A stretch of DNA of 64,000 nucleotides, from NCBI GenBank assembly GCA_021730105.1, contig CP072538.1, forward strand, positions 248,001 to 312,000, in the 5' to 3' direction. The position numbers and the translations under genes are program-made. The notes under the pieces were generated by a model that was given only the letters and a program-made list of their open reading frames with translations, was not told the DNA's origin and made no database searches. Below are positions 50,417-58,369 of this stretch, one piece after another (position 1 is the first letter of the stretch; each line of letters starts with the position of its first letter). The DNA comes from Candidatus Ruthia sp. Plio_17_S18 (GTDB taxonomy: Bacteria; Pseudomonadota; Gammaproteobacteria; PS1; Pseudothioglobaceae).

Positions 50417-50755
50417 ATGAAGTTTGTGACAGCAATTTTAAGACCGCATAAATTAGACGATGTTAGAGAGGCGCTGTCTGAGGTTGATGTGTCTGGCATA
50501 ACGGTCACTGAGGTGAAAGGTTTTGGTCGTCAAAAAGGACACACTGAGTTGTATAGAGGGGCGGAGTATCAAATTGATTTTTTGCCTAAAATTAAATTAG
50601 AAATTGCAATTGAGGCCTCAAGACTTGATGAAGTGATTAAGGTTATTAGTAATGTGGCTAATTCTGGTAAGGTGGGTGATGGCAAAATTTTTGTGACCAA
50701 TTTAGACAAAGTGGTTCGTATTCGTACAGGCGAAACTGATAGAGACGCGCTTTAA
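50417..50755 (+). CDS. glnK: PII nitrogen regulatory protein (paralogue 1)
   Basis: A 112-aa PII protein. It has the T-loop motif [17 protein letters not shown], containing the uridylylation Tyr at about residue 51, the B-loop VGDGKIFV, and the C-terminal VVRIRTGE. PII senses 2-oxoglutarate and ATP/ADP and controls AmtB and glutamine synthetase. Its partner amtB immediately downstream is destroyed, while this gene shows no damage. Confidence 0.93.
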   Translation: MKFVTAILRPHKLDDVREALSEVDVSGITVTEVKGFGRQKGHTELYRGAEYQIDFLPKIKLEIAIEASRLDEVIKVISNVANSGKVGDGKIFVTNLDKVVRIRTGETDRDAL

Positions 50756-50784
50756 GAAGTTAGCAGTGAAGAAAATATTAGCAA

Positions 50785-51393
50785 TATGGGTGTGTTTGCA
50801 CTAAAAAGATTTGATCAATATTAATGCAGTGTTTTGCCATTGCGGGCATTGTCAGTATCTTGTGGTTTGTAGTTGGTTATTCTATTGCTTGTTCAGGCGA
50901 TAATCCTTACTTTGGTGATTTTTCTAATGTGCTTTTGGCGCAAGTCAGTATAAATACGGTCAATGGCTCAATTCCAGAATCTTTGTTTGCCATGTTTCAA
51001 ATGAAATTTGCCATTATTACCCCAGCTTTGATTATTGGAGGATATGCAGAAAGAATGAAATTTTCAACTGTGTTATTATTTAGCTCTATTTGGTTGTTAG
51101 TGGTTTATGCACCTATTACGCATTGGGTGTAGGGTGACCGACTGGATAGGCAATGTGCTTGACTATGCTGGTGGTACAGTTGTTCATATTACTGCGGGTA
51201 TTGCAGCATTAGTGGCGGCTATTGTTTTAGGTTCTAGAAAAGGTTTTTTTAAAAAACCATGCCACCGCATAATATTACCATTACGGGCGCGGCAATGTTG
51301 TGGGATGTCATAACGGGCTTAAGAGTGAGTGAAAAGGAAGAGCAGCAAGGTTTGGACATTGTTTCTCATGAAGAAAAAGGCTACGATTTGTAA
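50785..51393 (+). pseudogene. amtB: Decayed ammonium transporter (amtB paralogue 1)
   Basis: Amt/MEP pieces: MQCFAIAGIVSILWFVVGYSIACSG, then FAMFQMKFAIITPALIIGGYAERMKF up to a stop at about 51130. Another frame gives GGTVVHITAGIAALVAAIVLGSRKG, with the first pore His. The sequence then jumps to ITGAAMLWDVITGLRVSEKEEQQGLDI and the stop at 51393. The central and C-terminal transmembrane core, roughly half the protein, is deleted, and at least two frameshifts are present. The surviving C-terminal tail resembles that of the intact amtB at 56071. Confidence 0.88.
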
Positions 51394-53546: not shown

Positions 53547-55442
53547 GTGGCGCTGTCACAAGATATTGTTGATAAACTCACTCGCCAAGAGGTGTTGGCG
53601 GGTGAGTTATCAGATGAAGAGTTAGCACAATTTTGCCAAATAGCCAATCTGACTTATCGAGCTGGAAAACCTATTATTAGCGACCAAGATTATGATTTTA
53701 TTTATCTTGCTACACTTAAAGATAGAGATCCTAACAATCCGCTACTCAAATCTATAGAGCCAGAAAGACAAATCTTTTCTGAGGAAAAAGTCTTATTACC
53801 AGAGGCAATGCTTTCTATTGATAAGGCATACTCATGGGATGAAGTGAATAAATGGATAGAGCGCTTAGAAAAATCAGCTATGCAAATTGGACTAGATTTG
53901 AGTAATATTCAAATCAAAGCCACGCCTAAATTAGACGGCTTTGCCGGATTTGATGATGGCAACCGGCTTTATACGCGAGGTGATGGCAAAAAAGGCAGCG
54001 ATATTTCTCGAGCATTCGAGCGAGGTTTGTGTGTTTTTAACGATGCTGAGCGTGGACTTGGAGCAGGTGAAATTGTGATTAAAAAAAGCTATTTTGAAAA
54101 ATATTTAGCACACAGTTTTGAATATCCACGTAATTTTCAAGCCAGCCTTATTAAAGAAAAAGCCTTAGATGAGCAGGCCCAAAAGGCTATTACAGATAAA
54201 GCTGCTTTGTTTGTTCCGTTTGTTCAATTACCCATTTGGTCAGGTTTTGTAGCTGAATTAGTTGCTAAATTCAACCAAATTGTTGCTCAGGTATTGGTGA
54301 TGGTAGATTTTGATGTAGATGGCGTGGTTTTTGAGGTCATTAATGCTGATTTAAAAACCCAAATGGGTGCTAATCGAAAATTCCACCGCTGGCAAATTGC
54401 TTTTAAAGAAAACAAAGACAAAGCACAAGTAAAAGTGCTCAGAGTGATATCTCAAGTAGGGCGTAGTGGAAAAATAACCCCAGTAGCAGAGCTAGAACCT
54501 ACTTTGTTAAGTGGCGCAACCATTGCACGTGCAACAGGGCATCATTACGGGTTAGTGAAAGAGCAAGGCTTGGGTGCGGGCAGCGTGGTCGAGTTAACTC
54601 GTTCTGGATTGGTTATTCCTAAAATTATATCTGTGCTAAAACCTATGTCTGTTGATATTCCTGATAATTGTCCAAGTTGCGACAAGCTACTTGTCTGGGA
54701 GTCAGATTTTCTAATGTGCATTAATCATAAAAATTGCCCCGCTCAAATTATTGGAAAAATAGCCTATTTTTTTAAGATATTGGCTAATAATGATGGTTTT
54801 GGTATTGCTACTATTGAAAAGCTATATGCGCATGATATTAGGTCAGTTTCACAAATTTATGCTCTAAATATAGAGCATTTAGTGGCAATGGGGTTTGGCG
54901 AAAAAACCAGTATGAAACTTATTAGCCAATTAAACCGCTCTGTTAATGAGCAGGTTGAAGACTGGCGTTTTTTATCAGCATTTGGCGTACATCGAATGGG
55001 TTTAGGTAATTGTGAAAACCTTTTAAAGTCCTATCATTTGAATGATATTTTTGATTTAAATTTAGAACAAATAGTCAATATTGACGGCTTTGCTGAATTA
55101 ACAGCGCAAATAATTGTACAAGGGTTGACCTCTATTACTGATGAATTTAATCAATTATATCAATATGGTTTTAATTTAGAAACAACCATACTAATCAAAG
55201 ATTTGCAAACATTAACACATGAACTATTTAATAAAAATGTTGTTTTTACTGGCAAAATGAACCATTCAAGAGACGACATGAAAAAACATGCTAAGTCAAT
55301 TGGCATTAACGTTTCAACTGCCATTAGTGCCAAAATAGATTACTTAGTTATTGGCGATAAGGTGGGGCAAAATAAAACGCAAGATGCTGAAAAGTTTGGA
55401 GTAGCAGTGATGACTGAAGCTGATTATTTGTCTAAGATTTAA
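53547..55442 (+). CDS. ligA: NAD-dependent DNA ligase, divergent
   Basis: LigA seals nicks in DNA using NAD+. The 631-aa protein has all expected parts. These are the NMN-binding Ia-type segment (ISDQDYDFIYLATL), the adenylated Lys in TPKLDG, TRGDGKKG, DGVVFEV, FHRWQIAFK, and QVGRSGKITPVAELEP. A zinc finger follows (CPSCDKLL...CINHKNCP), then a helix-hairpin-helix region and a C-terminal BRCT domain (NVVFTGKMNHSRDDM). The motifs deviate more from the usual LigA than its neighbours do from theirs (for example GFAGFDDGNRL where LAVSL is normal). Start GTG. Whether a second ligase exists is not visible. Confidence 0.88.
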   Translation: MALSQDIVDKLTRQEVLAGELSDEELAQFCQIANLTYRAGKPIISDQDYDFIYLATLKDRDPNNPLLKSIEPERQIFSEEKVLLPEAMLSIDKAYSWDEVNKWIERLEKSAMQIGLDLSNIQIKATPKLDGFAGFDDGNRLYTRGDGKKGSDISRAFERGLCVFNDAERGLGAGEIVIKKSYFEKYLAHSFEYPRNFQASLIKEKALDEQAQKAITDKAALFVPFVQLPIWSGFVAELVAKFNQIVAQVLVMVDFDVDGVVFEVINADLKTQMGANRKFHRWQIAFKENKDKAQVKVLRVISQVGRSGKITPVAELEPTLLSGATIARATGHHYGLVKEQGLGAGSVVELTRSGLVIPKIISVLKPMSVDIPDNCPSCDKLLVWESDFLMCINHKNCPAQIIGKIAYFFKILANNDGFGIATIEKLYAHDIRSVSQIYALNIEHLVAMGFGEKTSMKLISQLNRSVNEQVEDWRFLSAFGVHRMGLGNCENLLKSYHLNDIFDLNLEQIVNIDGFAELTAQIIVQGLTSITDEFNQLYQYGFNLETTILIKDLQTLTHELFNKNVVFTGKMNHSRDDMKKHAKSIGINVSTAISAKIDYLVIGDKVGQNKTQDAEKFGVAVMTEADYLSKI

Positions 55443-55518: not shown

Positions 55519-55524
55519 TATAAT
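55519..55524 (+). promoter_or_regulatory. -10 box of the glnK-amtB leader transcript
   Basis: A TATAAT after the ligA gene, with TG four bases upstream (near-extended -10). It would start RNA at about 55531, just before the hairpin AATACCC/GGGTATT. The -35 region is weak. Confidence 0.45.
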
Positions 55525-55535
55525 TACTAGCAGTT

Positions 55536-55555
55536 AATACCCAAAGGCGGGTATT
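55536..55555 (+). promoter_or_regulatory. Leader hairpin with a six-base loop, candidate ANTAR-binding site
   Basis: AATACCC pairs with GGGTATT and closes the hexaloop AAAGGC, which has A at position 1 and G at position 4. These are the two conserved bases in hexaloop hairpins bound by ANTAR antiterminator proteins. Only one such loop is seen; the usual second hairpin is not clearly present. Confidence 0.4.
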
Positions 55556-55568
55556 TAGCAAAGAACAT

Positions 55569-55599
55569 AGACGTTTATTTAGATAAACGTCTTTTTTTT
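55569..55599 (+). terminator. Strong intrinsic terminator in the glnK leader
   Basis: AGACGTTTAT pairs perfectly with ATAAACGTCT over a four-base loop, and eight T follow. Placed about 40 nt after the inferred transcription start, it would release a roughly 70-nt RNA unless transcription passes through. Confidence 0.8.
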
Positions 55600-55632
55600 C
55601 AGTTCCATCATGAAACTGAAAATAAGGTATTG

Positions 55633-55687
55633 AAGCCAGTCGTTAAGTTTGTATTTTTTTACAAGCACAACGACTGGCTTTTTTTGT
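55633..55687 (+). terminator. Second terminator, adjacent to the glnK ribosome site
   Basis: AAGCCAGTCGTT pairs exactly with AACGACTGGCTT, followed by TTTTT. The loop holds a smaller TTGTA/TACAA stem. It ends just before the AAGGAG site of glnK, so read-through here seems to decide glnK-amtB expression. Confidence 0.75.
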
Positions 55688-55707
55688 TTTTAAAAAGGAG
55701 AAGTTAA

Positions 55708-56055
<348 letters not shown>

Positions 56056-57284: not shown

Positions 57285-57811
57285 GATAATGACTACGTGT
57301 GGAGAGGACTAGCGCAACATGTTGATAGTGCAAGCAATCATGAGAAAGAAGTGACTATCTCATGTGGATTGGATTATGATTTTAACAATGGATTTGCACT
57401 TGGGGTGTGTGGGATTCAAATATTAGTTTTAAAGACGCTAATGGAAAATATGCTTCTATTGAAATGGATTGATACGGTTCATATGTTATGAATTATAAAC
57501 AGGTTGATTATGAAGTTAGCTATATCAGTTATCAATATCCGAATGCAACCGCTGCTAATTTTGAAGAAGTTTATGTGAGTGCATCTTACAAGGGCTTTGG
57601 ATTGACTCAGTACAAGGGTATTGATGGCGCAAATGATAATTTAGAATTGTCAGGTATAGATACCACATTAGTATATGGCGATTATAAAGATAGTAACAAA
57701 TACCATCCTATAATACTAGCCAAATCTATGGGTGAATTTGATTATGCTATTGCTTGGAATAAATCCAAACCAACAGAGGGTGATAACGAGAGCCAAGTTT
57801 GGTTTGATTGA
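57285..57811 (+). pseudogene. TorF-type outer-membrane porin remnant
   Basis: Immediately after the amtB stop the sequence reads DNDYVWRGLAQ, then GLDYDFNNGFALGVCG, typical of the TIGR02001/TorF putative porin family often found beside glnK-amtB. The signal peptide is missing. A frame change follows, with SNISFKDANGKYASIEMD-stop and YGSYVMNYKQVDYEVSYISYQYPNATAANFEEVY (in pieces) in new frames, and a last open piece (57488-57811) that ends QVWFD. The strands of a beta barrel are thus present but broken at least twice. Confidence 0.75.
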
Positions 57812-57840
57812 TAAAAATTGTTATAACTTTTATCAATCAA

Positions 57841-57868
57841 ACATAAGGCATTCTGCCGTATGTTTTTT
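57841..57868 (+). terminator. Intrinsic terminator after the porin relic
   Basis: The hairpin ACATAAGGCA-ttc-TGCCGTATGT (with one internal mismatch) is followed by eight T. Confidence 0.7.
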
Positions 57869-57928
57869 TTGAATTTAGGAAAAATAAGGTAGAATGAAAG
57901 TTTTAATAAAAGATACTGAGGTATAAAC

Positions 57929-58369
57929 ATGCAAGTTCAAGACATTATGTCAACCAATGTAAAAACATTCACCCCTGATCAGCTGGTTAAAGAAGTTGCT
58001 ATTATTATGGTGATGGATCACATTAGTGGCGCACCAGTGGTGGATGATAATAATAATTTAGTCGGCATTATCTCTGAAAAAGATATTCTACAACATATGT
58101 TTCCAAAGTTAGATGAAGTGATGAGTGATACCCATTTTGATTTTGAAAATATGGAGCATAATTACACAGATACCATGAATGTTAAAGTGGGCGAATTGAT
58201 GACTAAGGCTGTTGCCAGCATTGATTTAAGCATGCCATGCCTTAAAGCAGCATCCACTATGTGGCTTAGAAATTTCAGAAGAATCCCCGTGACTCATAAC
58301 AATAAATTAGTAGGTATTGTGAGTATTGGTGATGTGCATAGAGCTATTTTTAAATCATGCATTAAGTGA
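57929..58369 (+). CDS. CBS-domain protein
   Basis: A 146-aa protein of two CBS domains (VQDIMSTNVKTF and VVDDNNNLVGIISEKDIL; then VGELMTKAVASI and VTHNNKLVGIVSIGDV). Such stand-alone pairs bind adenosine nucleotides and often regulate transporters or enzymes. Its stop overlaps the GTG start of the ANTAR regulator (4 bp), so the two are made together. A TAGAAT -10 box lies at 57890-57895. Confidence 0.85.
   Translation: MQVQDIMSTNVKTFTPDQLVKEVAIIMVMDHISGAPVVDDNNNLVGIISEKDILQHMFPKLDEVMSDTHFDFENMEHNYTDTMNVKVGELMTKAVASIDLSMPCLKAASTMWLRNFRRIPVTHNNKLVGIVSIGDVHRAIFKSCIK

Follow-up and report, generated by a model that had tools for sequence, protein, structure and literature searches.

Positions 55531-55707 of the window, the 64,000-nucleotide stretch of Candidatus Ruthia sp. 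Plio_17_S18 DNA analysed here, very probably form a NasT-type ANTAR antitermination leader in which two gates stand in series ahead of glnK and amtB. Comparative evidence lends good support to a control of glnK-amtB by ANTAR-type antitermination. A second hairpin overlaps the terminator, the hexaloops are conserved, a NasT-like gene lies adjacent and the same code precedes a nitrate operon. Thus, the antitermination control of ammonium uptake proposed in the initial annotation of this leader has gained ground.

Layout and conservation of the glnK leader

The leader occupies the interval between ligA (stop at 55442) and glnK (ATG at 55708), and its elements are listed in Table 1. The -10 box, the AAAGGC hairpin, the strong first terminator, the second terminator and the glnK ribosome site recognised in the initial annotation are all present in sequence and fold. 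Folding the leader, which had been recommended as a check, placed it 7.7 SD below its shuffles (z = -7.7). The TATAAT box keeps a near-fixed spacing to P1 in nearly all relatives of the leader alignment. Nearly all relatives also keep the stem and T-run of terminator 1, usually with a longer loop. Terminator 2 is followed by about 20 nt up to the glnK start codon, and no promoter match was found in them. A search of the leader against Rfam matched no curated family and gave sub-threshold chance hits only.

Table 1. Elements of the glnK leader, the genes of its cluster and the nirB leader (window positions unless marked)
Feature	Position	Strand	Remarks
-10 box TATAAT	55519-55524	+	from sequence; leader promoter, start near 55531
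P1 AATACCC[AAAGGC]GGGTATT, 7 bp	55536-55555	+	first ANTAR hexaloop, module 1
P2 GAAC[ATAGAC]GTTT, 4 bp	55563-55576	+	second ANTAR hexaloop, A1/G4
Terminator 1 (T1), 10-bp stem and T8	55569-55599	+	sequence and fold
P3 hairpin CAGTTCCATCATGAAACTG	55600-55618	+	inverted relative to most relatives; without A..G hexaloop
P4 GGT[ATTGAA]GCC	55626-55637	+	ANTAR-type hexaloop, module 2; overlaps terminator 2
Terminator 2 (T2), long strong stem AAGCCAGTCGTT.../...AACGACTGGCTT and T7	55633-55685	+	fold; compensatory changes in relatives
Shine-Dalgarno-like AAGGAGAA of glnK	55695-55702	+
glnK, P-II regulator, 115 aa	55708-56055	+	PF00543, 1.1e-30
amtB, ammonium transporter, marine subtype, 403 aa	56071-57282	+	PF00909; TIGR03644 over cut-off
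Two-CBS-domain protein gene	57929-58369	+	PF00571, 7.5e-28
nasT-like ANTAR response regulator, 194 aa	58366-58950	+	PF03861, 4e-20
nirB leader	781042 (genome)	-	followed by nirB, narK, a PP2C/kinase-like gene and a molybdopterin nitrate-reductase-like gene

The ANTAR targets of EutV, NasR and AmiR consist of two mini-hairpins with A at loop position 1 and G at loop position 4 (A1/G4), the second overlapping a terminator (PMC3369931, PMC7496416). Only one hexaloop had been thought evident in this leader, but P2 and P4 are A1/G4 hexaloops as well. With the second hexaloop present, P1 and P2 would constitute a complete two-hairpin ANTAR antiterminator, here called module 1. Both stems reach the length of at least 3 bp expected of such sites. 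Terminator 1 takes its 5' arm from the loop end and 3' half of P2, which makes the two structures mutually exclusive; the overlap occurs in the window and in typical relatives. The linker between P1 and P2 is a short 7 nt, within the 5-12 nt of the E. faecalis eut leaders (PMC3369931); it is mostly 7-10 nt in glnK leaders and goes down to 1-3 nt in some nirB leaders when full stems are counted. Without protein, the predicted energy of P2 alone is 0 kcal/mol and that of P4 is -0.9. Such weakness is what the model requires, yet it is also how chance would look.

The glnK leaders of 28 relatives were aligned over their whole length. P1 loops read AAAGGC, AAAGAC, AAAGGT or AAAGAT in glnK leaders, nirB leaders add AATGAA, AACGAT and AAGGAT, and P2 loops read ATAGAC, ATTGAC, ATTGGC or ACAGAC. 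Among 22-23 glnK and 16-17 nirB leaders, A1 and G4 do not vary in P1, P2 or P4, a constancy partly imposed by the search and extraction pattern, and positions 2, 3, 5 and 6 vary. The unfiltered alignment has the same constancy except for decayed symbiont copies and one lost P4. Throughout Thioglobaceae (SUP05, Ruthia, Vesicomyosocius and mussel symbionts), loop A1 and G4 are mostly held and the other positions vary. A1 is not absolute, and the P1 or P2 loop starts with G in part of the PS1 clade (GAAGTT, GACGCT, GATGGC). The P1 stem changes on both sides (AATACCC/GGGTATT, AGCACCC/GGGTGCT, AACGCCC/GGGCGTT, GTTTCCT/GGGAAAC). The cells of module 1 are 93% paired, and none of 500 shuffles and no slid control reached this pairing or the covariation score of the module. 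The covariation and the conservation of the hexaloop hairpin in related genomes, both singled out in the initial annotation as worth checking, are thus borne out for this module.

In four symbiont genomes of ~1.0 Mb, decay of the glnK leader has reached P2, P4 and the stem of terminator 2; the same four have largely intact nirB leaders (one with A1 changed to G in P2) and have kept nasT. In one genome (G010, locus L019), the glnK leader is without promoter and module 1, and P3, P4 and terminator 2 are intact directly after ligA.

Module 2 consists of P3 and P4. P4 has the form GG(T/C)[AxxGxx]GCC, and its 3' half begins the 5' arm of terminator 2, which it overlaps. Its A1/G4 bases are held in 22 glnK and 16 nirB leaders and also in most of 36 named-genome leaders. 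The stem has 3 bp only, one of them T-G; its changes are one-sided only in the alignment tested, and AGC/GCT pairs occur in other leaders. P3 sits ~7 nt 5' of P4. It is typically CAATTTC[AAAGTA]GAGTTG in nirB leaders and CAGTTT[AAAGAT]GAGCTG in genus g2, which was not used in the covariance model, and both forms have an A1/G4 hexaloop. The loop has five bases in many glnK leaders, so that its length shifts between five and six. Both hairpins of module 2 carry A1/G4 in most nirB leaders, in genus g2 and in several glnK leaders. In the window, P4 has such a hexaloop but P3 does not, and module 2 of this genome is not a strict ANTAR two-hairpin member.

The P3 of the window (CAGTTCCATCATGAAACTG) is the exact reverse complement of the hairpin of near relatives (CAGTTTCATGATGGAACTG), and the same holds in genome G003 (L024). 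The change looks like a template-switch hairpin inversion, and a local inversion of this kind would have removed the A..G loop. With P3 inverted and devoid of that loop, the response of gate 2 may be poor in the genome studied here. For the family, then, support for the second gate is good; for this genome, the gate is uncertain.

A second leader and the distribution of the element

The closed genome of 1,231,801 bp was scanned with a descriptor comprising two A..G hexaloops and a terminator overlapping the second. Four matches were obtained, of which two were convincing, the glnK leader and a site at 781042 on the minus strand. The strict descriptor with A..G loops gave three matches, namely the glnK leader, the nirB leader and one probable coding artefact; the last, at genome position 600764 on the minus strand, was rejected by eye as a false positive, its terminator-like sequence looking coding. 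With the 15 alternative base combinations at the first and fourth loop positions, the strict descriptor found no match genome-wide, and with A..G loops it found none in 8 Markov genomes.

The nirB leader of this genome has both gates in the same order as the glnK leader and is divergent from a moaE-like gene. The nirB-narK operon behind it looks like an assimilatory nitrate operon. The double architecture recurs in the nirB leaders of most of 19 family genomes, and the order P1-P2-T1-P3-P4-T2 precedes two unrelated operons, glnK-amtB and nirB. In genome G030 (L193), nirB is a short N-terminal fragment and the double ANTAR leader is intact ahead of the nitrate-reductase-like gene.

Covariance model R1 recovers the glnK, nirB/narK, serC and serB-linked leaders, including those of genus g2 outside the model. 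Its matches stand upstream of glnK and nirB/narK throughout the family; in g2 they also precede serC and lie at serB-linked sites, and in one genome a match precedes a porin-like gene. The ANTAR modules that stand in g2 before serC-serA and before a P-II remnant and serB (L188, L197, L198) suggest that serine synthesis joined the regulon in this genus. Non-Thioglobaceae Gammaproteobacteria with an ANTAR gene have single modules of the same code beside that gene, in some cases with one more hairpin upstream. That serial gates might be a general trait of Gammaproteobacteria was considered and set aside, since the non-Thioglobaceae ANTAR neighbourhoods scanned had single modules.

The NasT-like regulator

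The genome contains exactly one PF03861 gene, the nasT-like gene, in the same neighbourhood as the glnK leader; the named control genomes, E. coli K-12 among them, gave no ANTAR gene. An ANTAR regulator had been announced 2.3 kb downstream; the gene is indeed downstream, but it begins 2.66 kb after the glnK start. The protein combines a receiver-like and an ANTAR domain, aligns with EutV end to end and has its nearest solved structures in EutV (6wsh), Rv1626, NasR and AmiR. It lacks the phospho-acceptor Asp of the EutV type. This residue is Asn in the window's NasT and in 75 of 75 family sequences (some genomes being sampled in both collections), and of 28 ANTAR proteins from other Gammaproteobacteria, 19 have Asp at the position. 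No NasS-type protein (PF13379, nitrate/nitrite-binding and of the NrtA type) was found in the window's genome or beside nasT in the family; PF13379 proteins, NasS or NrtA, adjoin nasT in members of other families (G038, G046, G048, G057).

Named relatives of the ANTAR protein come from Ca. Ruthia, Ruthturnera, Vesicomyosocius, Thioglobus, Bathymodiolus thiotrophic symbionts and PS1/Pseudothioglobus, which places the window's genome in the Thioglobaceae (SUP05 group). Nearly all Thioglobaceae examined encode such a NasT-like protein, usually in the glnK-amtB cluster, where the gene comes directly after amtB or after a CBS-domain gene that follows amtB. This placement suggests autoregulation. 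The stop of the CBS gene overlaps the nasT start by 4 nt in the window and likewise in same-genus relatives, and the CBS-domain protein is a possible partner of NasT. In other genera, the CBS-domain gene is absent or apart from nasT.

Mechanistic model, alternatives and known systems

From this arrangement we infer binding, antitermination, co-transcription and signal as follows. A sigma70-type promoter would start the transcript just 5' of P1, and an active NasT-like protein would bind P1 and P2 at their hexaloops as soon as these are transcribed. The 3' half of bound P2, being the 5' arm of terminator 1, would be held so that RNA polymerase passes. The same would happen at P3 and P4, keeping the 5' arm of terminator 2 unpaired and allowing glnK-amtB to be expressed. 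Without NasT activity, transcription would stop at one of the two terminators and yield an RNA of ~70 nt or ~155 nt. The same NasT would read the equivalent double leader before the nitrate-assimilation operon, which would make ammonium uptake and nitrate assimilation one small regulon. Where it is the third or fourth gene of the glnK-amtB cluster, nasT probably amplifies its own synthesis.

Given that NasS was not found and the receiver Asp is lost, candidate inputs are a different partner of NasT (P-II or the CBS protein) and control through the amount of NasT. It is tempting to go further and speculate, though we regard this as rather doubtful, that the family has rewired NasT as a whole. 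Devoid of NasS and phospho-acceptor, the protein could follow some other signal of nitrogen or energy, for instance via a P-II or CBS partner, the two serial gates could sharpen the response, and ammonium uptake and nitrate assimilation could form one positive-feedback switch.

Other explanations of the leader were weighed against two serial gates. Only module 1 might be an ANTAR antiterminator, with terminator 2 a plain terminator or the attenuator of another factor and the hexaloop of P4 incidental. The window's P3 without an A..G loop, the five-base loop of many P3 hairpins and the three-pair stem of P4 with its T-G would all fit such a leader. However, it would leave unexplained why A1/G4 of P4 is kept in so many glnK, nirB and named-genome leaders, why most nirB leaders and genus g2 have an A..G hexaloop in P3, and why the complete order of elements recurs before two unrelated operons. 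We consider it unlikely, but of all the alternatives the one to be taken most seriously.

A dedicated regulatory RNA of ~70 nt, ending at terminator 1 and using its ANTAR site to sequester the protein, presumably in the manner of EutX/Rli55-type RNAs, appears more improbable still. Such an RNA would arise each time gate 1 stays shut, would carry P1 and could titrate NasT. But in these genomes the element lies nearly always immediately before nitrogen genes, with P2 overlapping the terminator, and a role in trans is not needed. The initial annotation had also raised a ~70-nt RNA ending at terminator 1; it survives as the expected by-product of an attenuated leader, for which a dedicated sRNA is superfluous. 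The suggestion that terminator 1 may simply belong to ligA fares worst. Terminator 2 would then insulate glnK, an undetected promoter would serve glnK and the hexaloop would be a coincidence. The end of ligA does lie 127 nt 5' of terminator 1, and intrinsic terminators are common between genes. Against this, the -10 box stands between ligA and terminator 1, and terminator 1 is kept together with P1 and P2 where the upstream gene differs and in the divergently flanked nirB leader. The lack of a promoter match between terminator 2 and glnK and the descriptor controls (other loop bases, Markov genomes: 0) leave this explanation scarcely credible.

Compared with known systems, the serial two-gate leader with its NasT is closest to NasS-NasT of Paracoccus, Azotobacter and relatives, which likewise have a receiver-ANTAR protein, a two-hairpin site over a terminator and a nitrite/nitrate reductase target (PMC3795266, PMC5424462). 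Unlike in those systems, no NasS-type protein was found here, the receiver has Asn for Asp, the element also precedes glnK-amtB with two gates in series, and nasT is usually inside the target cluster. Paired A1/G4 hexaloops, P2 over a terminator and a linker of 5-12 nt are also shared with EutV and the Enterococcus eut leaders, and with the ANTAR motif of Ramesh et al. (2012) (PMC3369931); gates in series within a single leader do not figure in the text consulted. EutV is activated by phosphorylation, unlike the Asp-to-Asn NasT. The NasR/nasF leader of Klebsiella resembles ours in its two-hairpin site, closing C:G pair and A1/G4 preference, whereas NasR is a one-component nitrate sensor without receiver domain and a single two-hairpin site is described for it (PMC7496416). 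The principle is not new, since Ramesh et al. had already predicted in 2012 that ANTAR RNAs precede P-II and ammonium-transporter genes in other bacteria, and the 13 ANTAR sites reported for six transcription units of D. acetoxidans set a precedent for more than one site per unit (PMC3369931). In the literature searched, no paper dealt with ANTAR control in SUP05 or with ANTAR gates in series; the predicted serial double gate and the apparently NasS-less NasT are new here.

SUP05/Thioglobaceae are a sulfur-oxidising marine lineage with genomes of ~1-1.7 Mb, abundant in low-oxygen seas and including vent clam and mussel symbionts. The model offers a concrete account of how they may jointly control ammonium uptake and nitrate assimilation. 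It also raises two general questions: to what a NasT responds after the loss of NasS and of the phospho-site, and how two serial antitermination gates affect the shape of the response (leakiness, threshold, cooperativity).

Between amtB and the CBS-nasT pair of the window lie a degraded porin region and a terminator-like repeat; at 57300-57870, an apparent porin-like gene remnant is followed by an inverted repeat with a T-run. In one relative (L194), an ANTAR module stands directly before a porin-like gene. The window's other P-II gene (50417) was considered as a second target and dismissed, the genome-wide descriptor giving no site there. This gene is intact, and the ammonium-transporter gene that follows it (50417-51392 in all) is broken by a stop codon and missing segments.
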